Shown here: positions 33,925 to 48,501 of the stretch, piece by piece
How positions within the stretch are numbered: the first letter of the stretch is position 1
Layout: the number at the start of each line of letters is the position of its first letter
Source: Flexistipes sinusarabici DSM 4947
Lineage (GTDB): Bacteria > Chrysiogenota > Deferribacteres > Deferribacterales > Flexistipitaceae
Direction: 5' to 3'
NCBI RefSeq assembly: GCF_000218625.1
Contig: NC_015672.1
Location: forward strand, 744,001 to 808,000
DNA length: 64,000 nucleotides
The notes under the pieces: model-generated
Seen by the model: the letters and a program-made list of their open reading frames with translations, nothing else
What the model was told of the DNA's origin: nothing
Databases searched by the model: none
Program-made: the position numbers and the translations under genes

Positions 33925-36057
33925 TCATATTTCAATATATTCATCCAGAAACTGCGATAAATGCATCACTTTTATATCGACTCCAGTTTTCATAAGCCCG
34001 CCTTCGATTTGCATAATACATCCGGGACAATCTGTAATCACAATTTCTGCTTCGGTTTTTCTGATATTTTCTATTTTTTTATCCAGTATCCCTGATGAAA
34101 TTCCTGCAAAGTCAATGGAATAGGTACCGCCGAAACCGCAGCATACGTCACTGTCTTCAAGCTCGACAAAATTGTTTCCGAAGATTTCCTTCAGCATCTC
34201 GCTGGCAGAAGAACCCAGTCCTCTGGCCTGATGGCAGGGCGAATGATATGTAACTTTCACCCCGTTTTTAACCTTGAGGCTGATATTTTCTTTTTTCAAA
34301 AACATTCCAAGCGACAATGTTTTTTGTGCGATTTCTGTAGAAAGCTTATATAAATCGGGGTTGTCTGCTGTATGCTCGGGAAATTCTTCTTTTGCAGCCA
34401 TTCCGCAGCTCGGGCAAAGCACAAGATAAGAATCATAATCTGCCGGGTTGCCCATTTGTTTCAGGTTTTTGTGAATAGTTTTTCTTCCGTCTTTTCCATC
34501 CCCGGAGGCTATTGCAGGCAGACCGCAGCAGACAGGTTTGCCTGGTATATCAACCTTTACACCGGCTTTGTTTAAGATTTTTACTAGTGATTCGCCCATT
34601 TCCGGATAAAAATATTCCACAGCACATCCCGGATAAAACAGCACCTTCTTTTTGTAATCCTTCTGCCTTTTGTAATTTTTTTTGAATTTTTCAGTAAAGA
34701 AAGATGAGGCCACTGCAGGGAGAGTTCTGAAATCTTTGCTTTTAGGCATAAATGGGATGGATTTCAGGTGTCTGCCGTCTTTTGCTATAAGCGGCTTTTG
34801 AAAATATGAAGCGGTTTTAAGGGCTGTTGAAAAAACTCCGGAATTTGGAATTACAGAGGAATAGATGGTTTTTTTCACAGGGTTGATGCCGTACTCTTCA
34901 CCAACAATCACTTTGAGCTTTGAAATAATACCCTGAAGATCTATGCCGGCCGGACATATTGAAGAACAGGCCTTGCATCCAATACACAGTTTCAGTATAT
35001 CTTTTGCTTTTTCTTCCCCGTGGTAAAGGGCTGTAAGAATAAGCCCAATAGCTCCAATATAAATATGTCCGAAAACATGACCCCCGACCATTTCGTAAGG
35101 CGGGCATATGTTTGCACAACTGCCGCAGCGAATGCATTTCAGGGCTTCTCTGAATTCAGGGTGCTGAAAAAACGCAAGACGGCCATTATCCAGAAAAACA
35201 TAATGCACTTCCTTGATATTTGTCTGGTTATTGACAGAAGGGTAACAACCCTTCATCCAGGTAACGTAAGTGCTGATATTCTGTCCCGTGGCGCTTTTGG
35301 GGAGTAAATTAATTATATCAAAAGCAGTATCAAAATTTTCAACAAGTTTTTCGTATCCCAGTAAAACAATGTGGACAGGTGGTACAGTTGATGTCAGCCT
35401 GGCATTTCCTTCATTGGTTACTGTGGCAATAGCACCTGTTTCGGCAACGGCAACATTAGCTCCGGTGATACCAACACGGGCTTTAAAGTAGTAGTCTCTG
35501 AGAAATTCTCTTGCCGTTTTTACCATTTCATCGATATTGTCCTTGTCTATCTCTTTTCCTGTAAACCTGCTGAATATTTCAGCTACCTGCTTTCTGGATT
35601 TATGTATTGCAGGCATTACCATATGGGAGGGATGTTCGCCTGCAATCTGAAGTATCCATTCTCCCAAATCTGTTTCCACAGGTTTTAATTTTTCCTTTTC
35701 CAAATAGTCATTGAGCCTTATCTCCTCAGATGTCATGGATTTTGATTTTACGATATATTCTGTTTTGTGAGTTTTGCATACCTCTGTAATGTATCTGCAT
35801 GCATCGGTACCGGTTCTTGCTCTGAAAACCCTGGCACCACTTTTTTCAGCATTATTTTTAAAACGCTGAAACAGAGTCTCCAGATATTTAGGGGAGTAAG
35901 TCCGTTTGCTGTTTATTTCCATTCTGAGATTTTCAAAATCCAGTCCGTTTAAAGCCGCTGAGCGTGATTTTTTATAAGAAGCGGCAAAATTTTTCAGATT
36001 GTTGTAAAGTATTTCATCGCTGAGTTTACTGTTAATCTTGTTTCTGAATGAGTTCAT
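33925..36057 (-). CDS. L-lactate oxidation Fe-S protein, LutB-LutA fusion
   Basis: 710 residues combining two proteins that are separate in Bacillus (LutB and LutA). Residues 1-290 form a LUD domain (RVGITGANVAVAETGAIATV). Two ferredoxin-type 4Fe-4S motifs follow (CIRCGSCANICP and CIGCKACSSICP). The C-terminal third has the twin CCG motifs of heterodisulfide-reductase-like subunits (VLFYPGCAVEYFYPE with PVCCGLPA, and SPCHQARGLG with VCCGFGGTYS). With LutC it should oxidise L-lactate to pyruvate and pass electrons onward. It lies 8 bp after lutC on the same strand and faces away from the TRAP transporter. Fusion order is LutB then LutA. Confidence 0.88.
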   Translation of the reverse strand: MNSFRNKINSKLSDEILYNNLKNFAASYKKSRSAALNGLDFENLRMEINSKRTYSPKYLETLFQRFKNNAEKSGARVFRARTGTDACRYITEVCKTHKTEYIVKSKSMTSEEIRLNDYLEKEKLKPVETDLGEWILQIAGEHPSHMVMPAIHKSRKQVAEIFSRFTGKEIDKDNIDEMVKTAREFLRDYYFKARVGITGANVAVAETGAIATVTNEGNARLTSTVPPVHIVLLGYEKLVENFDTAFDIINLLPKSATGQNISTYVTWMKGCYPSVNNQTNIKEVHYVFLDNGRLAFFQHPEFREALKCIRCGSCANICPPYEMVGGHVFGHIYIGAIGLILTALYHGEEKAKDILKLCIGCKACSSICPAGIDLQGIISKLKVIVGEEYGINPVKKTIYSSVIPNSGVFSTALKTASYFQKPLIAKDGRHLKSIPFMPKSKDFRTLPAVASSFFTEKFKKNYKRQKDYKKKVLFYPGCAVEYFYPEMGESLVKILNKAGVKVDIPGKPVCCGLPAIASGDGKDGRKTIHKNLKQMGNPADYDSYLVLCPSCGMAAKEEFPEHTADNPDLYKLSTEIAQKTLSLGMFLKKENISLKVKNGVKVTYHSPCHQARGLGSSASEMLKEIFGNNFVELEDSDVCCGFGGTYSIDFAGISSGILDKKIENIRKTEAEIVITDCPGCIMQIEGGLMKTGVDIKVMHLSQFLDEYIEI

Positions 36058-36065
36058 AACGCCAC

Positions 36066-36539
36066 CTATAAGTCTTTGATTATAAAAACGGTCATTTTAA
36101 CCGGACCATGGACACCGATTGTCAATATGCGTTCTATATCCGCTGTTCTGCTTGCGCCTGTGATAAACGCAATATAAGCATTGTCCTTTTCCGTCTGTTT
36201 CTTCATGTAGTCTTTTATGTCAAAAATTGTATTTATTAATTTGCTTTTTAATAAAACCACCTGCAAATGCTCAGCCAAAGAAGAGGCGAGTCTGATTTCT
36301 TCTTTGCTGCTGTCAATTACTACGGTTCCACTATTTGCCACTCCCCAGTCAGCTTCAATGCAGGCTGTGGAAATGCCGTTTTTATCTATTTCACATCTTT
36401 TATACTGCTCAAACGATGGTAAATGAACAAAGGGCACTTCATCCAGGCTTTTTAATAAATCATTTTTTGATAAACAAAAATTTTCGTTTTCCGCCGCCTG
36501 TGAGTTTTTGATAAATTGGTCGAGTTTTGAGTTGGGCAT
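36066..36539 (-). CDS. lutC: LutC-type LUD domain protein
   Basis: 157 residues, short for LutC, which is usually 210-240. It keeps the core: CIEADWGVANSGTVVIDSS, LAEHLQVVLLKSKLINTIFD, FITGASRTADIERILTIGVHGP. This Gly-rich C-terminal signature is typical of LUD/DUF162 proteins. It is the first gene of lutC-lutAB, and its ATG is preceded by AAAGGAG. The transcript should start within about 30 bp of the palindromic operator at 36555-36567. The usual extended N-terminus is lacking, so the protein may rely on the LUD domain in the fusion protein. Confidence 0.8.
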   Translation of the reverse strand: MPNSKLDQFIKNSQAAENENFCLSKNDLLKSLDEVPFVHLPSFEQYKRCEIDKNGISTACIEADWGVANSGTVVIDSSKEEIRLASSLAEHLQVVLLKSKLINTIFDIKDYMKKQTEKDNAYIAFITGASRTADIERILTIGVHGPVKMTVFIIKDL

Positions 36540-36554
36540 AAAAAACTCCTTTAT

Positions 36555-36567
36555 TTGGTAATACCAA
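36555..36567. promoter_or_regulatory. GntR-type operator at the lutC promoter
   Basis: TTGGTAATACCAA is a perfect inverted repeat around one base. It lies immediately downstream of the minus-strand -10. The TGGT-N3-ACCA pattern matches the type recognised by PdhR/LldR-like regulators. A gene for such a regulator ends this gene cluster. Confidence 0.7.
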
Positions 36568-36595
36568 TTTTAGAGATAATGATTAACTAAGTCAA
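36567..36595 (-). promoter_or_regulatory. Sigma-70 promoter of lutC-lutAB
   Basis: On the minus strand: TTGACT (36595-36590), 17-bp spacer, TAAAAT (36572-36567), then the operator. Confidence 0.65.
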
Positions 36596-36731
36596 CCTAT
36601 TTTTTTAAACAGAGACAATATAGATTTTATATATTTGTTAAAATGATTAATATTTGCTTAATAGATTTGTAGTGTTAAACTATTTTGATTGGAAAAATTA
36701 AAACAAATTTATGAAATTTGAATTAAAAGTA

Positions 36732-36770
36732 TTGACAAAGATATTTTGTCTGTTAAAAATGGTCATACCA
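36732..36770 (+). promoter_or_regulatory. Sigma-70 promoter and operator of the dctP operon
   Basis: TTGACA at 36732-36737 and an A-rich -10 (TAAAAA, 36754-36759) are followed directly by TGGTCATACCA at 36760-36770. The layout mirrors the divergent lutC promoter, with the palindrome over the start-site region, so one repressor could control both directions. Confidence 0.65.
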
Positions 36771-36804
36771 AATAATGGTAAAACTTTAAAACTGGGAGGT
36801 TTGT

Positions 36805-37890
36805 ATGTTTAAGAAATTGTTACTTGTTTTAACAATGGTTATGATGATTTTTGCTTTAACAGTTTCCGCTGCGGAAAAGAAGACTTATAACTGGAAACTG
36901 GTTGAGACTTATCCTACAGGGATACCATGGCACGATACGGCTCTGCATTTTGCAGATACCGTGGAAAAGATTACCGAAGGCCAGATCAAAATTAAGGTTT
37001 ACCCTGCAGGGGCTATTGTACCTGCTTTTCAGGTATTCGATGCAGTAAGAAACCGGGTTGCTGAAATGGGTTTTGCATGGCCCGGATACTGGAAAGGCAA
37101 AGATCAGGCTTTTGTGGCTTTTGCTTCTGTTCCTTTCGGGATGAATAATCTTGAGTTTTCCACATGGATGATTGCCGGAGAAGGTATGAAGCTGGCAAAA
37201 GAATTGTACGGTAAATACGGTTTGGTTCCTCTTTTGGGTGGAAACTCCGGACAGGAAATGGGCTTTTTCACAGCTAAACCTTTGCAGGAAGTTGGCGATC
37301 TTAAAGGTAAAAAAGTAAGAACAGTCGGCTGGGGTGCTGATATTCTGAAAGATATGGGTGTTTCTGTTACTCCACTGCCCGGCGGAGAAATTTATCTTGC
37401 TTTTGAAAGGGGAGTTCTTGACTCTGCAGAATTCAGTACTCCTTTTGTAACATATCCTATGGGTTTTCAGGATATAGCTAAGAATGTCATGGTTCCCGGC
37501 TGGCACCAGACTTTTGTTCAGAATATGTTCACAGTAAATAAAAAAGTATGGGATGACCTCCCTGAAAACCTGCAGCAGGCTCTGAAAATTGCATCCCTTG
37601 AAACACAGATGTGGGATATAGCAAGATCTGAGAAGGGGAATGCCGAGTCTATCCTTAAGTACAAAAAGGAAGGTGTGAAATTTAACAAACTCAGCGATGA
37701 GTCTTTAAACAAGCTTAGGAAGACAACCAAAGAGTATCTTGCCGGCTTGAGGAAAAAGAGCGATTTTCTTGATAAAGTTCTTGACTCACAAGAGGAATTT
37801 ATAAAGCTTTATGCAAACTGGAAAGAGCTCAAGAGCGGTGTTTCCGCATATCCGTATGAAGACTATATGGCTGGTCAGCATTACGAATAA
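36805..37890 (+). CDS. dctP: TRAP transporter substrate-binding protein (DctP family)
   Basis: Periplasmic binding protein of a TRAP transporter. It has 361 residues with a signal peptide (MFKKLLLVLTMVMMIFALTVSA). The family motif region is seen in LKGKKVRTVGWGADILKDMG and VTPLPGGEIYLAFERGVLDSAEF, including the conserved Arg that binds the carboxylate. The context (lactate oxidation genes on both sides, LldR-like regulator) suggests lactate or another 2-hydroxy monocarboxylate as ligand; this is inference. GGGAGG precedes the ATG. A hairpin just downstream probably makes dctP more abundant than the membrane subunits. Confidence 0.92.
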   Translation: MFKKLLLVLTMVMMIFALTVSAAEKKTYNWKLVETYPTGIPWHDTALHFADTVEKITEGQIKIKVYPAGAIVPAFQVFDAVRNRVAEMGFAWPGYWKGKDQAFVAFASVPFGMNNLEFSTWMIAGEGMKLAKELYGKYGLVPLLGGNSGQEMGFFTAKPLQEVGDLKGKKVRTVGWGADILKDMGVSVTPLPGGEIYLAFERGVLDSAEFSTPFVTYPMGFQDIAKNVMVPGWHQTFVQNMFTVNKKVWDDLPENLQQALKIASLETQMWDIARSEKGNAESILKYKKEGVKFNKLSDESLNKLRKTTKEYLAGLRKKSDFLDKVLDSQEEFIKLYANWKELKSGVSAYPYEDYMAGQHYE

Positions 37891-38102: not shown

Positions 38103-38612
38103 ATGTCAGCTTTAATTAAATTGATAGACTCAATAAGTGAGTTTTTAGGGAAAATAATCAGTTATCTGGTTTATGTGCTGCTGATTGTTGTCGTATTTGA
38201 GGTTATAAGTCGGAAAGTTTTCGGAAGCCCAACTATTTGGGGGTTTGAGTTCAGTTTCATGTTATATGCCCTAATGTTTATGCTTGGATTTGGTTTTACA
38301 TTGAAGCATAAGATGCATATAGGCATAGATATTTTCTACTCAAATATGTCGCCCAGGAAACAGGGTTTTTTGGATTTGTTTACATATATAATTTTCTTCT
38401 TCCCCTTTATCTATTTTGCAGTAACATCTTCCATTACTTTTACCTCTCAATCGTGGCAGATGCTTGAGCACAGCCAATCGCCGTGGGCGCCACCTATTTA
38501 TCCCTTTAAGACAGTTATGCCTGTAGCTTTTTTGTTATTGGGATTTCAGGGGATAGCGGAGTTTCTTAAGGCGATTTATAAAATAAAAACAGGAGAAAAG
38601 TATGGGGCCTGA
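38103..38612 (+). CDS. dctQ: TRAP transporter small membrane subunit (DctQ family)
   Basis: 169 residues with four membrane helices: IISYLVYVLLIVVVFEVISR, FEFSFMLYALMFMLGFGFTL, YIIFFFPFIYFAVTSSI and FKTVMPVAFLLLGFQGIAEF. The DctQ pattern E-x2-R-K-x-F-x-S-P (EVISRKVFGSP) is present. It overlaps the start of dctM by 11 bp and works with it as the sodium-driven permease. Confidence 0.92.
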   Translation: MSALIKLIDSISEFLGKIISYLVYVLLIVVVFEVISRKVFGSPTIWGFEFSFMLYALMFMLGFGFTLKHKMHIGIDIFYSNMSPRKQGFLDLFTYIIFFFPFIYFAVTSSITFTSQSWQMLEHSQSPWAPPIYPFKTVMPVAFLLLGFQGIAEFLKAIYKIKTGEKYGA

Positions 38613-39924
38613 TTTTCTTTCTATAGCGATGTTTGTCGTACTTTTAATTGCAGTGTTCCTGGGTCACCCACTTGGTATAACATTGGGCGGACTGGGGATT
38701 ATTTTCGGTTTAATCGGTTACGGCCCCGGAGCTTTTTTTATACTGACCAGTAAAACTTACGGTCTTATGACAAATTATGTTCTGGTGGCTATACCTTTGT
38801 TTATCTTAATGGCCCAGTTTCTGGATAAATCAGGGGTTGCTGAGGATCTATACGAATCCATGTATATCGTTTTCGGGCCGGTGAGAGGTGGTCTGGCTAT
38901 GGCCACTATTGTCGTTAGTACTGTTTTTGCAGCTACCACAGGGATAATAGGTGCTTCGGTGGTTGCCATGGGTCTCCTTGCGGCACCGACCATGCTTTCC
39001 AAAGGTTATAAGAAGGAACTGACCGCAGGGGTCATTACAGCAGGAGGGACTCTGGGTATACTTATCCCGCCTTCCATTATGCTTGTTGTTTACGGCGGTC
39101 TTATAGGCATGTCTGTGGGAAAACTTTTCCTTGCGGCCTTTATCCCCGGCGTTACTCTTTCAATTCTTTATCTTATTTACGTCGGTATACTGTGTTATTT
39201 TAAACCGGAATACGGCCCTCCTTTGCCAAAGGAAGAAAGAACGCATACATTAAAAAGAAAAATTGGCATGACTCTGAAATCAATGCTTCCACCGCTGTTT
39301 CTTATTTTTGCAGTGCTGGGCAGTATAGCCGGAGGGATTGCAACACCTACCGAAGCGGCCGGTTTGGGCTCTGTCGGTGCACTTATACTTGCAATTTTAA
39401 ACAAAAGAGCCAACTTGCAGTTTTTTAAAGATTCTGCTTATTCCACACTTAAAATTACCTGTATGGTTATGCTGATATTTGTGGGTGCAAACTTTTATAC
39501 ATCAATTTTTATGGGACTTGGCGGCGGTGATATGTTTGAAAAGCTGCTGTTTTCCATTAGTTCTAACAAGTGGATTGTCCTGGCAATTATGATGTTTATC
39601 ATGTTTTTGCTTGGAATGTTTGTGGACTGGCTCGGGATACTGCTGCTTTGTGTGCCTATTTTCACTCCTATTGCGGTAAATCAGCTCGGCTTTGACCCAT
39701 TATGGTTTGCACTGATTGTCTGTGTAAATCTGCAAATGTCATTTTTGACTCCTCCGTTCGGCTATGCCTTATTTTATCTTAAAGGGGTGGCACCGGAAGG
39801 GATGCATTTGAGCCATATTTACAGAGGTATTATTCCTTTTGTGATTCTGCAGCTTATTGGTTTGGTTCTGATCGTAATGTTTCCAGAGATTGTAACCTGG
39901 CTTCCTAACCTGATAATGAATTAA
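38602..39924 (+). CDS. dctM: TRAP transporter large membrane subunit (DctM family)
   Basis: 440 residues, about 12 hydrophobic segments. Conserved blocks are LVAIPLFILMAQFLDKSGVA, TTGIIGASVVAMGLLAAP, GGTLGILIPPSIMLVVYG and IATPTEAAGLGSVGALILA; the last is the DctM signature near the second sodium-site hairpin. It is the transport core for the DctP ligand. The start codon lies within dctQ. Confidence 0.94.
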   Translation: MGPDFLSIAMFVVLLIAVFLGHPLGITLGGLGIIFGLIGYGPGAFFILTSKTYGLMTNYVLVAIPLFILMAQFLDKSGVAEDLYESMYIVFGPVRGGLAMATIVVSTVFAATTGIIGASVVAMGLLAAPTMLSKGYKKELTAGVITAGGTLGILIPPSIMLVVYGGLIGMSVGKLFLAAFIPGVTLSILYLIYVGILCYFKPEYGPPLPKEERTHTLKRKIGMTLKSMLPPLFLIFAVLGSIAGGIATPTEAAGLGSVGALILAILNKRANLQFFKDSAYSTLKITCMVMLIFVGANFYTSIFMGLGGGDMFEKLLFSISSNKWIVLAIMMFIMFLLGMFVDWLGILLLCVPIFTPIAVNQLGFDPLWFALIVCVNLQMSFLTPPFGYALFYLKGVAPEGMHLSHIYRGIIPFVILQLIGLVLIVMFPEIVTWLPNLIMN

Positions 39925-39935
39925 CGGGGGTTGAA

Positions 39936-41309
39936 TTGAAAAAAAATGTGCTGAAAAAGTTCCAGAAGATTGTTGGCAAAGGGAACTGTTTTATCTCCCC
40001 TGAGGAAACATCAGGTTACTGTTTTGATGCTTTTGCTAAAAGTAATGTTTTCCCTGAGGTTGTAGTTGCCCCCGAAAATGCAGAGTGTATCCCTGAAATT
40101 ATCAGGTTGTGTAATGAAGAAAATCTGGCTGTTGTCACACGAGGGGCAGGGACAAATCTAAGCGGAGGAACGCTACCTTTTGAAGGCAGCTGCGTCCTGC
40201 TTACAACGAAGCTTAACAAAATAAAAGAGATAAATAAGGCTGATCATTATGCCGTAGTTGAAGCCGGTGTTATAACAACTGATATTGCAAATGCTGCAGT
40301 AAAAGCGGGTCTTTTTTATCCGCCGGATCCCGGCAGCATGAATATTTCCACAGTTGGAGGAAATGTGGCGGAGAATGCCGGTGGACTCAGAGGCTTAAAG
40401 TACGGTGTTACAAAAGACTATCTGATGGGGCTTACACTTTTTGATGCTGAAGCTAATAAGGTTATAGGCGGAGGCAGAACTGTAAAACAGGTTACAGGAT
40501 TTAATCTGCCGGGACTTTTTGCAGGCTCGGAAGGCCTTTTGGGAATTATGACAGAATTTGTGTTGAAACTGATTCCACCGCCGGAGAGTTCCCGGTCAAT
40601 GCTTGTCATATATGAAAATATTCTAAAAGCATGTGACACCGTTTCAGAGATAATTGCTGAGAATATACTTCCGGCCACAATGGAGCTAATGGATAATTTT
40701 ACCATCAAAACAGTGGAGGAAGCCACGGCAATAGGTCTGCCGGTTGATGCGGGTGCGCTGTTGCTGCTGGAGATTGACGGACATCATGTACAAGTGGCTG
40801 ATGAGTTTGAGAAAGTGAAATATATTTGTGAGAAAAACGGCGGGCATCTGAAAACAGCGGAAGATGAAGAATCCAAAAATAAAATATGGGAAGCCAGGCG
40901 AAAGGCTTTGAGCAGTCTTGCGAGATTAAAACCGACGCTTATTCTTGAGGATGCAACCGTTCCCAGAAGCAAAATTTCCTCCATGATGTCTTCTATTATG
41001 GATATTTCCAGAAGATATGAAATTACTATAGGTACTTTCGGCCACGCCGGTGACGGCAACCTTCACCCGACAATTCTTACCGATAAAAGAGATAAGGAAG
41101 AGATGCTGCGTGTTGAGAAAGCAGTGGATGATATTTTCTCCGTTGCACTGAACCTCGGAGGTACACTCAGCGGAGAACATGGGGTAGGCACTGCAAAAGC
41201 CAAATATCTGGAAATGGAATACGGCAGCGGTACAGTAAAATTTATGAAGAATCTAAAAAAAGGTGTAGATGCAGGAAATGTTTTGAATCCAGGGAAAATG
41301 GGTTTATAA
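39936..41309 (+). CDS. FAD-linked 2-hydroxyacid dehydrogenase, GlcD/D-lactate dehydrogenase family
   Basis: 457 residues, VAO/PCMH flavoprotein. The FAD-binding PP loop is VVTRGAGTNLSGGTLPFEG. YPPDPGSMNISTVGGNVAENAGGLRGLKYG and HAGDGNLHPTI are typical, and GTLSGEHGVGTAK closes the C-terminal domain. Paired with the following Fe-S protein it should oxidise D-lactate or glycolate. The start is a TTG at 39936 with GGGGG ahead of it, 11 bp after dctM. Substrate cannot be read from sequence; context favours D-lactate, complementing the L-lactate LutABC system on the other strand. Confidence 0.9.
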   Translation: MKKNVLKKFQKIVGKGNCFISPEETSGYCFDAFAKSNVFPEVVVAPENAECIPEIIRLCNEENLAVVTRGAGTNLSGGTLPFEGSCVLLTTKLNKIKEINKADHYAVVEAGVITTDIANAAVKAGLFYPPDPGSMNISTVGGNVAENAGGLRGLKYGVTKDYLMGLTLFDAEANKVIGGGRTVKQVTGFNLPGLFAGSEGLLGIMTEFVLKLIPPPESSRSMLVIYENILKACDTVSEIIAENILPATMELMDNFTIKTVEEATAIGLPVDAGALLLLEIDGHHVQVADEFEKVKYICEKNGGHLKTAEDEESKNKIWEARRKALSSLARLKPTLILEDATVPRSKISSMMSSIMDISRRYEITIGTFGHAGDGNLHPTILTDKRDKEEMLRVEKAVDDIFSVALNLGGTLSGEHGVGTAKAKYLEMEYGSGTVKFMKNLKKGVDAGNVLNPGKMGL

Positions 41310-41310
41310 C

Positions 41311-42564
41311 ATGGAAGATCTTGTAAAGGAACTCAAAGAGCTGGAAGAGCTTGTTATAAAGTGTATGAAATGCGGTACATGTCAGGCTCACTGTCCGCTG
41401 TACAAAAAGGATTTCTTTGAGCAGTCTGTTGCCCGCGGCAAAATATCGATGATAGAGTCGGTATATGAAGGTAATTTAAAAGACGCTTCCCGTATTTTAA
41501 AATACATTGATTACTGCTTGATGTGCGGCAGGTGTAAAAATAACTGTCCCAGCGGTGTCAAAACTGATGAAATTTTTCTAAGAGCAAAAAGCGCTTTGCG
41601 AAAAGTTGAAAAGCTGCCTTCCTGGGGCAAATTTGTTTTAAAGATAGTCATGGAGAAACCTGAACTGCTGTCCAGAATATCTCCGCTTATGCATATAGGA
41701 TTAAAATTCGGCAGTAAGCAGGTGAAAGATGATGTGTTTAAACCGTTATTCGGTTTATATTCACGTAATGTTGCTTCCTTTGCTAAAAAAAGCTTTTGTG
41801 ACGATTATGCCGGTTTCCATCAAGCGGAAAATGAAAAATTGCGCGTTATCTTTTATCCCGGGTGTGCAGTAAATTATATGTACAAACATTGGGGAGAGAC
41901 TATTGTAAAGTTGCTGAAAAAACTGAATGTATCGGTATATGTTCCTGATGTGAATAAGTGCTGTGGTATTCCTGCTGCAACTTTAGGTGATATGGAACTC
42001 TACGCCAAAATGGTTGATGAAAACAGACGGCTTTTTAAAAGTCTTGATGCAGGGTATGTTATAACATGCTGTCCCACATGTTCATATGGCCTGTTTGACA
42101 TGGGGGAAACGGTTGCACATGAAACGTTTGATAAAAAAGAGATGGATATCCTGGTATTTTTAAAAGAAGTGATAGGCTTATCACCGAAGCAATTGACTTT
42201 AGAGAAGACTTCACTGCATATACCATGTCACTACAATCACTCCGAAGATGCACTTCTGAAAAACCTTATAACTGATATTTCTGAAAATTATTACGAACTG
42301 AAAGATCAGTCCTGCTGTGGTTTTGGCGGTACTTTTAATTTGAAGAATTACGATTCGTCAAAAAATATTGTTAAAAATAAGACTGTAGAAGTTCGTGAAG
42401 AGAAGGTCAAAAAGTTGTTTACACCTTGTCCCGGCTGTGCTATGCAATTAACCGATGGTATAATTCGTGAGGGCGGCGAGGCGGATGTTTTACATCCTGT
42501 TGAGCTTATTTACAGGGGGCTGATCGATTCAGATGTTTCAGAAGATAAAACCGAAGAGAATTAG
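41311..42564 (+). CDS. Fe-S oxidoreductase partner (GlcF-like, CCG domains)
   Basis: 417 residues. Two N-terminal 4Fe-4S motifs (CMKCGTCQAHCP, CLMCGRCKNNCP) precede twin CCG domains (IFYPGCAVNYMYKHWGE with KCCGIPA, and HIPCHYNHSED with SCCGFGGTF and CPGCAMQL). It accepts electrons from the GlcD-like flavoprotein and passes them to the respiratory chain. It begins 1 bp after the upstream stop. The architecture resembles the C-terminal half of the LutB-LutA fusion at 33925-36057. Confidence 0.9.
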   Translation: MEDLVKELKELEELVIKCMKCGTCQAHCPLYKKDFFEQSVARGKISMIESVYEGNLKDASRILKYIDYCLMCGRCKNNCPSGVKTDEIFLRAKSALRKVEKLPSWGKFVLKIVMEKPELLSRISPLMHIGLKFGSKQVKDDVFKPLFGLYSRNVASFAKKSFCDDYAGFHQAENEKLRVIFYPGCAVNYMYKHWGETIVKLLKKLNVSVYVPDVNKCCGIPAATLGDMELYAKMVDENRRLFKSLDAGYVITCCPTCSYGLFDMGETVAHETFDKKEMDILVFLKEVIGLSPKQLTLEKTSLHIPCHYNHSEDALLKNLITDISENYYELKDQSCCGFGGTFNLKNYDSSKNIVKNKTVEVREEKVKKLFTPCPGCAMQLTDGIIREGGEADVLHPVELIYRGLIDSDVSEDKTEEN

Positions 42565-43267
42565 TGACGAAATATATTTTCAAATAAGGGATTTGATTTT
42601 AAACGGTGAGCTTAAACCCGGTCAGAAACTTCCTCCTGAAAGGGAGCTGGCCGAGAGTATGAGTGTGAGCAGGCCTTCCCTGAGAGAGGCTCTGAACAAG
42701 CTGGTTGCACAGGGATATCTGGAGCAGGTTCAGGGCGGCGGAACGTATGTTAAATCCATAACAGCCACATCAATCGATAATGCCATTGAAGAGTTTGTAA
42801 AACGTGATGATGCCATTTTTGATCTTATGGAAGTACGTAAGATACTGGAAACATGGGCGGCTTATGCAGCTGCAGAAAGGGCTTCTGAAAAAGAAATTAA
42901 TAACATGTTTGAATTTCTGGAAGAGATGAGAATAGCCAAAGAGCACGGTCAAATCGGCTATATTTCCGATACAAATTTTCATTTTGCCATTTCCCATGCA
43001 ACCCATAACGTGCTGCTTGTTCACGTAATGAATAATATTTATCAGTGGATTGAGCGTGTCAGTTATGAGATTAGATCAAGAATGCATAACAAGCCGGACA
43101 GCCACGAACTGCTTTTCAGACATCATACTGATATATTTAATGCTATAAAGTCAAAAGATCACAACCTTGCTTATGGCAAAATGCTTGTTCATATGAATTA
43201 TATAGAGCAGGAACTGGAAAGAATATTTAATAAAGGTAAACAAAAAGAAAGTCTCGAAGATTCTTGA
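42533..43267 (+). CDS. GntR/FadR-family transcriptional regulator, LldR-like
   Basis: 244 residues. The winged helix (about 10-75) has GELKPGQKLPPERELAESM and SRPSLREALNKLVAQGYLEQ, followed by GGGTYV. The C-terminal FCD domain has metal-ligand-like residues in SDTNFHFAISHATHN and HHTDIFNAIKSKD. The FadR/LldR branch senses small organic acids. The gene starts inside the 3' end of the Fe-S gene (32-bp overlap), so it is co-expressed with its likely targets. It is the obvious candidate for binding the TGGT-N3-ACCA sites at 36555 and 36760. Confidence 0.9.
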   Translation: MFQKIKPKRISDEIYFQIRDLILNGELKPGQKLPPERELAESMSVSRPSLREALNKLVAQGYLEQVQGGGTYVKSITATSIDNAIEEFVKRDDAIFDLMEVRKILETWAAYAAAERASEKEINNMFEFLEEMRIAKEHGQIGYISDTNFHFAISHATHNVLLVHVMNNIYQWIERVSYEIRSRMHNKPDSHELLFRHHTDIFNAIKSKDHNLAYGKMLVHMNYIEQELERIFNKGKQKESLEDS

Positions 43268-44416: not shown

Positions 44417-47400
44417 CTATTCTTCGTTACTGTTTTGTTTGAAGCAGTCTATATTCTCTGCTAACTGCTTGGTCAGGTTGAACCTGAATCTCGTTTTTTC
44501 CTCGGCAATATCAGCCAGCTCTTTGGCTCTTTCGGGGAACATTTTTGCCACGGCTCTGAACCTGTTTTCGGACTTCATATATTCGGCTACTGAAACAGAA
44601 GGTTCTTTACTGTCTATTTGCAGAGGATTTTTGCCCTGAGCTTTCAACCTGGGGTCGAATCTATACAGCATCCAGTATCCACTCTTAACGGCTGTCCTTT
44701 GCTGCTCAACACCTTTGGACATATCGATTCCGTGAGCGATACAATGTGAATCAGCTATTATCATGGAAGGTCCGTCATAAGATTCGGCTTCTTTAAATGC
44801 TTTGACACATTGTGCCTGATTGGACAGAGAAACTTTGGCTACATAAATATGTCCGTAAGTCATTGCTATCATACCGAGATCCTTTTTCTCCAGATCTTTA
44901 CCGGCGAAAGCGAATTTTGCAAATGAACCGATGGATGTGGCTTTTGAAGCCTGACCGCCTGTGTTTGAGTAAACTTCAGTATCAAGTACGAGTACATTTA
45001 CATCATTTTCCTGAGCGAGCACATGATCAAGTCCGCCGTAACCTATGTCATAAGCCCAGCCGTCACCACCTACAACCCATATGGATTTTTTGATAAGAGC
45101 ATCTGCAACTTCCAGAAGTTTTTTCGATTTTTCGTTATTTATCTCATTCAATTTCTCTTTGAGTTTTGCAACCCTTTCTCTCTGCTCTTCTATTGCAGTT
45201 TGAGTGCTTTGGTCTGCATTTGCTATTTCGTCAACAAATTTACTTCCCAACTCATCCTTAAGTTCATCAAGGAGTTCCAAAGCAAATTCTTTTGATTTTT
45301 CAACAGCAAGACTCATACCATAACCCACTTCTGCGTTATCTTCAAAAAGAGAGTTTGTCCATGCCGGTCCTCTACCGTCCTGTCTCTTTGTGTAGGGTGT
45401 TGTGGGAAGATTACCGCCGTAAATGGATGAACATCCGGTGGCATTTGCAATAAGTGCTCTGTCACCGAAAAGGTGTGCCATCAGTCTCACATAGGGGGTT
45501 TCACCGCAGCCGGCACATGCACCGGAAAATTCGAACAGATGAGGTGTAAGCTGGCTTCCTTTCAGTGTGTTTCTGTTAAATTTGGACGGATCCAGCTCCG
45601 GGATGGTTTGGAAAAACTTGAAGTTTTCTCTTTCCTGAGCCCTTAGCGGAGGCTGAGGCTCCATATTGATTGCTTTATATTTAGGATCTGTTTTGCTTTT
45701 TGCAGGGCAGTTATAAACGCATGCCCCGCAGCCGGTACAGTCTTCAACGGCAACTTGAATACTGAATTTCATCCCTTTGAACTCTTTTCCTCTGGCGTCC
45801 GTGTATTTGAATGTTTCAGGAGCGTTTTTCAACTCACTTTCATCGTAAACTTTCATCCTGATTGTTGCGTGCGGGCAAACAAAGGAGCATATTCCGCACT
45901 GAATACATATTTCGGGATCCCATACCGGTGTCTGTAATGCAATGTTTCTCTTTTCATATTTAGAGGTACCGGTCGGGTATGTCCCGTCATCAGGCAGCCA
46001 GGAAACGGGTACGTCATCGCCTTCGTAAGCCACCATTTTGCTTATAGCTTTTTTAACGAATTCCGGTGCATTCGGATCGTCGATATATTTTTTCATTTTA
46101 ATATCACTGGTTACAGAAGAAGGTACTTTAACCTGATGAAGCTGATTGGCCCCGGCATCTACGGCTTTGTTATTCATCTCAACTATTTCGTCTCCGTATT
46201 TTCCGTAAGTTTTCTTAATGGTTTCCTTGATTGCTTTGACAGCTTCATCGAATGGAAGAATTTCTGAAATTTTAAAGAATGCCGTCTGCAGAATAACGTT
46301 AATTCTGGGTCCTAAACCGATTTCTTCTGCGATATCGTTGGCATTGATAACGTAAAATTTCGCCTCTTTTTCTATCAAGTCTTTCTGAACTTCTGCAGGA
46401 AGCTTGTCCCATACTTCGTCTTTTGAATAAAAGCTGTTCAGAAGGAATGTACCGCCTTTTTTAAGTTTTTTGACTATATCGTAATGCTCCAAAAAAGCGA
46501 AATTATGACATCCGATAAAGTCAGCCTTTTGAACAAGATATGAGCTCTTTATCTCCCTTTGACCAAATCTAACGTGAGATGTGGTCATTGATCCGGCTTT
46601 CTTTGAGTCATACACAAAATAAGCCTGAACTTTGTTGTCGGTCAGATCACCGATGATTTTGGCTGAGTTTTTGTTGGCACCTACTGTACCGTCCGAACCC
46701 AGACCGAAAAACATTCCGTTGAAAACATCGTCCTGGGGTGTAAGCCATTCTGGATTATAATCGATACTTCTGTCTGTTACATCGTCTTTGATTCCCACTG
46801 AAAAATTGTTCAGAGGTTCTTTTTTATCAAGATTATCGAAAACCCCTTTTATCATGGCCGGGGTAAAATCTTTTGAGCCAAGTCCGTATCTTCCGCCTAC
46901 TATTGTTGGGTATCCGTCGTAAGAAATCATCTTTTTCTGCATAGCTTCGCCGATAGCCGTTCTTATATCAAGATAAAGCGGCTCGCCGAGTGATCCCGGT
47001 TCTTTTGTTCTGTCCAAAACTGCCATTTTGTCAGCCGTTTTGGGAAGAGCATCAACAAAAGCTTCAAGAGGGAACGGTCTGAACAATCTTATTTTGATAA
47101 CACCGACTTTTTCTCCCCGGGAAACCATATACTCAACGGTTTCCTCCACAACATCGGCTCCGGATCCCATTATGATTATAACTTTTTCTGCCTCAGGATG
47201 ACCTACGTAATCAACGAGGTTATACCTGCGTCCTGTAAGTTCGAAAAATTTATCCATCTGTTTCTGGAGAATTTGTGGGCATTCGTCATAATACTTATTT
47301 ACTGCTTCCCGGCTTTGAAAAAAAACATCCGGGTTCTGTGAGGTACCTTTAATAGTCGGGTTTTCAGGATTAAGCGCATTTTTTCTGTGATTAGCAATAA

Positions 47401-47998
47401 GCTCATCAGAGATCATGCTTTTCATCTGGTCTTTGGTCAATTCTTCTGTTGTTCTGATTTCATGAGAAGTTCTGAAACCATCGAAGAAATGAAGAAATGG
47501 TACACGTGATTCAAGAGAAGCTGCCTGGGCTATCAGTGCTGAATCCATAACCTCCTGGGGACTGTTTGAAGCCAGCATCGCCCATCCGGTCTGTCTGCAT
47601 GCCATAACATCGGAATGATCTCCGAAAATGGAAAGAGCATGTGATGCTACAGCTCTGGCACTAACGTGAAACACCGCCGGTGTAAGTTCTCCGGCTATTT
47701 TATACATATTCGGTATCATAAGAAGCAGCCCCTGAGAGGCTGTAAAAGTAGTTGTTAGTGCCCCTGTTGTAAGTGAGCCGTGGCACGCTCCGGCGGCACC
47801 GGCTTCTGACTGCATTTCCACAACTTTGGGTACAGAACCCCAGATATTTTTTTCACCTTTTGCACTTTTTTCATCAGCCTTTTCTCCCATATCCGAAGAA
47901 GGGGTTATAGGATAAATGGCAATTACTTCATTAACAGCATGTGCAACATGGGCTGCTGCAGTGTTACCGTCAATGTTTACAAAATTTCGCTCTGACAT
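44417..47998 (-). CDS. nifJ: Pyruvate:ferredoxin (flavodoxin) oxidoreductase, single-chain
   Basis: Oxidatively decarboxylates pyruvate to acetyl-CoA and reduces ferredoxin. It has 1193 residues with the fused domain order. Domain I is at the N-terminus (YPITPSSDMGE). The CoA region and domain III follow. Two 4Fe-4S clusters are in CIQCGICSFVCP and CTGCGACVYNCP, then the proximal-cluster/ThDP domain has CAGCGETPYVRL, NATGCSSIYGGN and GGDGWAYDIGYGG, with NTGGQASKATS for Mg/ThDP. GGAGG precedes the ATG and a strong terminator follows, so it is monocistronic. It would consume the pyruvate made by the lactate genes just upstream on the chromosome. Confidence 0.97.
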   Translation of the reverse strand: MSERNFVNIDGNTAAAHVAHAVNEVIAIYPITPSSDMGEKADEKSAKGEKNIWGSVPKVVEMQSEAGAAGACHGSLTTGALTTTFTASQGLLLMIPNMYKIAGELTPAVFHVSARAVASHALSIFGDHSDVMACRQTGWAMLASNSPQEVMDSALIAQAASLESRVPFLHFFDGFRTSHEIRTTEELTKDQMKSMISDELIANHRKNALNPENPTIKGTSQNPDVFFQSREAVNKYYDECPQILQKQMDKFFELTGRRYNLVDYVGHPEAEKVIIIMGSGADVVEETVEYMVSRGEKVGVIKIRLFRPFPLEAFVDALPKTADKMAVLDRTKEPGSLGEPLYLDIRTAIGEAMQKKMISYDGYPTIVGGRYGLGSKDFTPAMIKGVFDNLDKKEPLNNFSVGIKDDVTDRSIDYNPEWLTPQDDVFNGMFFGLGSDGTVGANKNSAKIIGDLTDNKVQAYFVYDSKKAGSMTTSHVRFGQREIKSSYLVQKADFIGCHNFAFLEHYDIVKKLKKGGTFLLNSFYSKDEVWDKLPAEVQKDLIEKEAKFYVINANDIAEEIGLGPRINVILQTAFFKISEILPFDEAVKAIKETIKKTYGKYGDEIVEMNNKAVDAGANQLHQVKVPSSVTSDIKMKKYIDDPNAPEFVKKAISKMVAYEGDDVPVSWLPDDGTYPTGTSKYEKRNIALQTPVWDPEICIQCGICSFVCPHATIRMKVYDESELKNAPETFKYTDARGKEFKGMKFSIQVAVEDCTGCGACVYNCPAKSKTDPKYKAINMEPQPPLRAQERENFKFFQTIPELDPSKFNRNTLKGSQLTPHLFEFSGACAGCGETPYVRLMAHLFGDRALIANATGCSSIYGGNLPTTPYTKRQDGRGPAWTNSLFEDNAEVGYGMSLAVEKSKEFALELLDELKDELGSKFVDEIANADQSTQTAIEEQRERVAKLKEKLNEINNEKSKKLLEVADALIKKSIWVVGGDGWAYDIGYGGLDHVLAQENDVNVLVLDTEVYSNTGGQASKATSIGSFAKFAFAGKDLEKKDLGMIAMTYGHIYVAKVSLSNQAQCVKAFKEAESYDGPSMIIADSHCIAHGIDMSKGVEQQRTAVKSGYWMLYRFDPRLKAQGKNPLQIDSKEPSVSVAEYMKSENRFRAVAKMFPERAKELADIAEEKTRFRFNLTKQLAENIDCFKQNSNEE

Positions 47999-48007
47999 AG
48001 TTCCTCC

Positions 48008-48501
48008 TTAATTTGATATCTCAACAAAATCTGTTTTGATTAGTTGTGTACGTTCGGGTAATTGCTAATTACCTTAATGGTACTTTAATAATAGTTAATC
48101 TTTTGTTAATTTTTTAACAGACATAACTATAATATTAAACTGCTTTATAACATTGCAAACAACAGCCGTCAACGTTTTTTGCCCTCTGGAATGCACTTTT
48201 AAGTATATTTGAAAAATTTGTTATCGCCTTATTTTTATACAGGTTTGTGAAACTTATTGTTAACTGTTTTGCTCATTTTGGTTCTGGGATATTTTCAGGT
48301 TAAATCTGTTAAGAATGTTTCGAAGGGTAATTAAAATTAGAACATAATTATATTAAACTCCTGATATTATTGCCATTGTGAGCCTCTTTTCTCAGAAATG
48401 GTGAATTTTTGAAAATTATTGAATATTATTCAGATTAATGATAGAAAGTTTCAATTAGATTGTATTTTGTTTGGTGAGACAAAACAAGTTAGGAGGGCTT
48501 T
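48008..48501. other. Intergenic region between divergent nifJ and the acyl-CoA synthetase gene
   Basis: About 490 bp, strongly AT-rich. I find no gene, RNA or clear repeat. It must contain two divergent promoters, but no hexamer pair stands out enough to call. Confidence 0.5.

Follow-up and report, generated by a model that had tools for sequence, protein, structure and literature searches.

The window analysed here is a stretch of 64 kb from the genome of Flexistipes sinusarabici, which consists of one contig of 2,526,590 bases. An intergenic region (36540-36804) lies between two divergent operons. The left operon is on the minus strand and contains ldhG (36066..36539), coding for a small LUD-domain, LutC-like subunit (PF02589, positions 91-189 of 189), and ldhH (33925..36057), coding for the large subunit of a quinone L-lactate dehydrogenase, a LutB/LutA-like fusion. 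The initial annotation had named this operon LutABC. A LutABC operon has the three genes lutA, lutB and lutC, and only two genes were found here; because LdhH exceeds the cutoff of NF045670 (963 bits, cutoff 800) and unites LUD and CCG domains in a single chain, the operon is LdhGH.

The right operon is on the plus strand. Domain and family profiles identified dctP (36805..37890), coding for a TRAP solute-binding protein that also has PDB sequence matches, followed by the TRAP membrane subunit genes dctQ (38103-38612) and dctM (38602-39924). Next are a glcD-like gene for an FAD subunit (39936..41309) and a glcF-like gene for an Fe-S/CCG subunit (41311..42564), the products of which score below the glycolate-oxidase cutoffs (GlcD, 498 bits, cutoff 568; GlcF, 92.5 bits, cutoff 333). 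The last gene of this dctPQM-glcDF operon, gntR (42533..43267), was assigned from profiles and alignment to an LldR-like GntR/FCD regulator; its 5' end overlaps the 3' end of glcF by 32 bp.

Operators and promoters

Exact copies of TGGTN3ACCA occur only twice in the 64 kb window, at 36556-36566 and at 36760-36770, and each lies directly after a -10 element, as the initial annotation had stated. The left operator reads TGGTATTACCA on the minus strand (TGGTAATACCA on the forward strand) and covers the predicted start point of ldhGH. It follows a promoter (36567..36595, minus strand) with TTGACT (36595-36590), a spacer of 17 bp and TAAAAT (36572-36567). The right operator, TGGTCATACCA on the plus strand, covers the predicted start point of dctPQM-glcDF-gntR behind a promoter (36732..36760, plus strand) with TTGACA (36732-36737), a spacer of 16-17 bp and TAAAAA or AAAAAT. 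At the usual distance between a -10 element and the start point, the centre of each palindrome falls at about +1. Matches with one mismatch numbered 17 in the window, fewer than the roughly 21 expected, which leaves the exact pair as the only informative one.

The promoter scan gave TTGACT-17-TAAAAT (minus strand) and TTGACA-17-AAAAAT (plus strand) as its two best matches, with 10 of 12 bases each. The near-consensus hexamers that had been claimed are borne out, except that for the right -10 TAAAAA behind a 16-bp spacer, which keeps the palindrome in register, appears the better reading. Hexamers alone are weak evidence, since the scan returned 6 matches where 2.4 were expected. The layout also bears on the mode of action. 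A regulator that activates, or that activates as well as represses, has precedents in the LldR of D. vulgaris, which is a predicted activator of its own operon according to PMC6456213, and in that of E. coli, for which the title of a 2008 paper, as given in the reference list of the same article, speaks of a 'dual role'. For the Flexistipes protein this is improbable, as both sites cover a predicted start point right behind the -10, the -35 elements are near consensus, and in the window each promoter has a single exact site, with no exact site farther upstream than either -35.

Conservation and specificity of the sites

Among 45 genomes of the order that were searched, 18, F. sinusarabici included, contain an orthologue of the regulator (at least 53% identity). 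Twenty stretches were compared, namely the cluster from 17 other genomes and three second regulator copies (L085, L088 and L090). The initial annotation would have been contradicted by a lack of the palindromes in orthologous clusters, and no such contradiction emerged. An exact palindrome was found at 17/17 visible ldhG promoters of the 18 orthologue-bearing genomes; the promoter of G007 is not visible because the contig begins too late. On the linked second branch an exact site precedes dctP or glcD in 10 of 14 genomes, where a site before glcD was counted if the TRAP genes are missing or present only as a remnant. The exceptions are G018, with one mismatch, and G015-G017, in which the N3 palindrome at the TRAP promoter is replaced by GTGGT-N11-ACCAC arms in 3/3 members of that genus (L087, L089 and L084).

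Of the 33 listed sites, 29 have a TTGACA with no more than one mismatch at a distance of 26-33 bp upstream. Offsets of 26-30 bp account for 22 of the 33, compared with a mean of 1.0 and a maximum of 6 in 2000 shuffles, a result that is descriptive and overstates independence, because the shuffles preserve nothing but base composition and the sites share ancestry. The four sites that do not follow a TTGACA at this distance are weaker sites, TGATANTACCA, located directly before gntR in all four Calditerrivibrio-like genomes (L074, L075, L076 and L078); these sites may be autoregulatory. The regulators of F. sinusarabici (G000) and G011 are 99% alike. Between F. sinusarabici and G010, 42 of 46 bases are kept in the operators and promoter elements, while the remainder of the intergenic region keeps 113 of 219.

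In the Calditerrivibrio-like genomes (G001-G004) the regulator lies beside ldhGH, and no glcDF genes occur in the stretch examined. A glcD-glcF-dctPQM cluster is located elsewhere in the genomes of G001, G003 and G004, and an exact TGGTAATACCA was found before glcD in each of the three (3/3 searched, G002 excluded); therefore the site follows both branches. TTGACA or TTGACT stands 34-36 bp before these unlinked sites, so that its distance to the -10 slightly exceeds that in the window. In G003 two exact palindromes, separated by 183 bp, precede glcD (L096:2881 and 3064).

The genomes without an orthologue number 27, of which 18 gave no LdhH match at 1e-60 and nine carry LdhH-like genes. No exact palindrome was found upstream of the LdhH-like genes in the four of these nine that were examined (G029, G031, G043 and G044); the single exact copy among the four, in G044, is inside ldhH. 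The short stretches of G028 and G030, with the promoters outside the view, held no exact copy; G035, G038 and G040 (39% over about 377 residues) are outside this comparison. In G044 (L118), which is without the regulator, ldhG and a PFOR (nifJ-like) gene are transcribed away from each other, and the DNA between the two contains no exact palindrome. At the second regulator copies of G015-G017 (L085, L088 and L090) no site was found in bases 3000-17000; in L090 a single exact copy occurs, at position 686, 9 kb from the second regulator copy.

The start-to-start spacing of the two operators is 204, 204, 212, 196, 116, 78, 101 and 178 bp in eight cases and 1541 bp in G008, where a transposase gene (PF01609) is situated between the operators and both operators are retained. 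At 78-1541 bp, with the transposase gene of G008 in between, the spacing is unconstrained, and a loop between the operators was rejected as a requirement.

Genome-wide, exact TGGTN3ACCA was counted 26 times, against 17 for the reversed control. The longer pattern with one mismatch gave 48/42 against 36/32, and WWTGGTNNNACCAWW in 10 relatives gave a summed 64 against 50 for the control. Such counts are only modestly above the controls and alone say little, as would be expected if chance or composition had produced palindromes in an AT-rich promoter region. That explanation is nevertheless hardly credible, given the preservation of the palindrome at all of the visible ldhG promoters and on the unlinked branch, and the uneven identity of the intergenic region described above. 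Scored with a symmetrised matrix built from 25 sites outside the Flexistipes genus, the window pair takes the first place (23.8 bits) and the second (20.8 bits) among the 26 exact sites, and the next one reaches 17.1 bits. It is conservation and flanks, not counts, that single out the window pair. Judged on exact sites, these ranks suggest that the regulon of F. sinusarabici probably comprises just the two promoters in the window.

Of the 24 exact sites outside this promoter region, 22 fall inside mechanically called ORFs longer than 90 aa; the site at a betaine promoter (see below) counts among these 22 by way of an upstream start. Thirteen stretches with sites from relatives were also inspected, and in those of G001, G003, G004, G005 and G008, apart from the glcD promoters, the copy is mostly inside an ORF. 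A search for further sites, for example near nifJ (PFOR, 44417-47998), had been suggested. Only a one-mismatch match at 48472, 474 bp before the start and outside the eight best matrix scores of the window, was found there; it is not convincing, and nifJ was rejected as a target. A lactate-type site that scores 22.0 bits and has TTGACA at 29 bp is present at a 3-hydroxybutyrate operon of G013 (L102:6484-13333), with genes for TRAP, dehydrogenase, thiolase and CoA-transferase. In the remaining two genomes with this TRAP protein, G008 and G009, the 4-kb stretches compared contain no exact site, and an extension of the regulon to 3-hydroxybutyrate use is a lead from G013 alone.

Regulator and predicted control

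The 42533 protein matches PF00392 (82 bits) and PF07729 (80 bits), both above the cutoff, and with its HTH and C-terminal FCD domains belongs to the FadR subfamily of GntR regulators. Its predicted operators conform to the rule given for this subfamily, a TKGT/ACMA palindrome in which GT and AC are separated by 3 nt (PMC4494728). Family scores are level between LldR (NF007741, 168 bits, cutoff 311) and PdhR (NF007001, 167 bits, cutoff 330), both under the cutoff, which makes the protein LldR-like but not an equivalog. PMC9600882 gives TGGTNNNACCA as the consensus operator of LldR in A. woodii, C. glutamicum and P. aeruginosa and lists five residues, R/D/H/H/H, for the zinc site of the LldR FCD domain. 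Operators of the form TGGTNNNACCA stand at the lactate genes of Flexistipes, and R102, D146, H150, H198 and H220 correspond to the zinc residues, as matched by order and spacing and not by structure. These residues are present in 16/16 aligned LldR-like sequences (14 in-cluster and two second copies); the alignment is without the in-cluster rows of G010, G014, G015 and G017.

Likeness to PdhR extends beyond the level scores, as the best PDB match of the HTH domain is PdhR (5kvr). The D/H residues are not a clean separator of LldR and PdhR, because a PDB chain that bears the name PdhR, 9jpj, shares D and H at the first two of the metal positions; in contrast, 5tpm, also named PdhR, has N and Q aligned with D146 and H150 and a two-residue insertion between them, and the genome context in Flexistipes is lactate. 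Together, the operator consensus at lactate genes and the five zinc residues favour LldR over PdhR, and the view that the cluster ends in an LldR-like GntR gene is upheld. The protein resembles the LldR regulators of C. glutamicum (2DI3), P. aeruginosa, A. woodii and E. coli in domains, operator, metal-site residues and location beside lactate dehydrogenase genes. Unlike these, it is under the NCBIfam cutoff, comes from a different phylum, and is predicted to control LdhGH as well as TRAP-GlcDF, with one operator per divergent promoter.

A betaine operon (FCD GntR, BetA, BetB and OpuAC) is located 3.6 kb past the window (L021:3624-3773 and 3793-8721, that is, C1:811624-816721). The promoter of its regulator (C1:811.8-812.5 kb) has the same layout and core, with TTGACA at 29 bp and TGGTACTACCA after the -10, the latter found also in G011; with the lactate matrix this site scores 17.1 bits. 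Binding of the betaine regulator to the lactate sites, alone or in competition, might be considered on these grounds, yet it is quite improbable. The betaine sites have ACT or GCT as their central triplet, whereas 24 of 28 exact lactate sites have ATT, AAT, AAG or CTT; the betaine regulator is without H150 and H198; and the lactate sites track the in-cluster regulator. The triplet and the missing metal residues suggest a separate system, with some cross-talk possible.

The preferred reading is that the 42533 protein is an LldR-type repressor of both divergent promoters, acting as a roadblock at +1 and released by lactate; a probability of roughly 80% is assigned to it. A dimer of the protein would bind TGGTN3ACCA at each of the two divergent sigma-70 promoters and, centred on about +1, would block RNA polymerase, so that the ldhGH and the TRAP/GlcDF operons are both shut when no inducer is present. 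As the last gene of the TRAP/GlcDF operon, gntR would limit its own expression. Lactate, by analogy either isomer, would occupy the metal site in the FCD domain, release the dimer and open both promoters. The initial annotation had predicted one repressor for both branches, released by a 2-hydroxyacid. Apart from the name LutABC, its two-branch scheme agrees with the three unlinked sites and with the lack of upstream sites in four orthologue-less genomes, and one lactate-sensing repressor of known type very probably controls both operons.

The predicted 2-hydroxyacid is probably lactate, by analogy with P. aeruginosa, in which both lactate isomers relieve repression by LldR (PMC11389411, as far as available). 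It should not be assumed that any 2-hydroxyacid will serve, because glycolate lowers expression in P. aeruginosa in an LldR-dependent manner (same source); in Flexistipes, too, glycolate may work against induction. It is possible, if rather unlikely, that the sites are of LldR type and the natural inducer is another 2-hydroxy or 2-oxo acid that the TRAP system imports and GlcDF oxidises. Both GlcD and GlcF fall short of the glycolate-oxidase cutoffs, and the closest PDB sequence to DctP is 7ug8 (5.9e-53), named as a ketoacid-binding protein. The lactate-binding chains are lower, namely 2zzv (5e-43), which we take to be the same protein as the lactate-binding TTHA0766, and 7e9y (2.2e-35), named as TTHA0766; fusions of a lactate-binding protein are among the PDB relatives of DctP. 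Moreover, F. sinusarabici MAS10T is reported not to grow on lactate (PMC3236037). Against such an inducer, LdhH is above the L-lactate dehydrogenase cutoff, and in the Calditerrivibrio-like genomes the regulator adjoins ldhGH alone. Furthermore, excerpts of published descriptions report lactate use by Deferrivibrio strain V6Fe1 and list lactate in two of four Deferribacter columns of a table.

With lactate as the probable effector, a puzzle is that a conserved and apparently intact lactate regulon is found in a species whose type strain reportedly does not grow on lactate. The comparative evidence for extending the LldR-type regulon to the Deferribacterota is strong; no description of such a regulon in this phylum was found in the literature searched, most subscription journals being outside the scope of the search.

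Desulfothermus and the third half-site

The only locus with the cluster that was found outside the order, by one search that reached close relatives only, is in Desulfothermus okinawensis (L020), a member of another phylum. It contains the whole cluster with an exact site on the ldhG side and no exact copy on the other side. In 149 genomes of the class of Desulfothermus only one other match was obtained at 1e-40, with 37% identity, which suggests lateral transfer of the cluster. Several genes in L020 match in shifted pieces, perhaps owing to assembly errors.

The Flexistipes LldR-type system is of a well-known kind; its modestly interesting feature is an asymmetry caused by a third half-site. 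In the window TGGTA follows the right operator at 36776..36780 (plus strand), with 16 bp from the start of the operator to that of the half-site. At this fixed phase it is exact in 5 of 10 right operators and within one mismatch in 6 of 10; three of the five exact cases are from the Flexistipes genus and one each from two other families. It was found at 0/18 left operators, 0/3 unlinked operators and none of 1332 other downstream positions. Extra boxes 7-12 nt from the centre are described for GntR operators in a 2015 survey, the consulted part of which leaves their function open (PMC4494728). The Flexistipes half-site resembles these as a weaker third box, about 12 nt from the centre, but differs in being confined to one of the regulator's two predicted promoters.

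Tentatively, the operators may be unequal in function as well, with a plain palindrome at ldhGH and TGGTN3ACCA-N5-TGGTA (in one genus GTGGT-N11-ACCAC) at the uptake/GlcDF promoter, where a second dimer might be recruited and a different inducer threshold result. If this is true, the third half-site would set a threshold for uptake that differs from that for oxidation. The locus provides a natural comparison in itself, as the same regulator and promoter layout occur with and without the third half-site.
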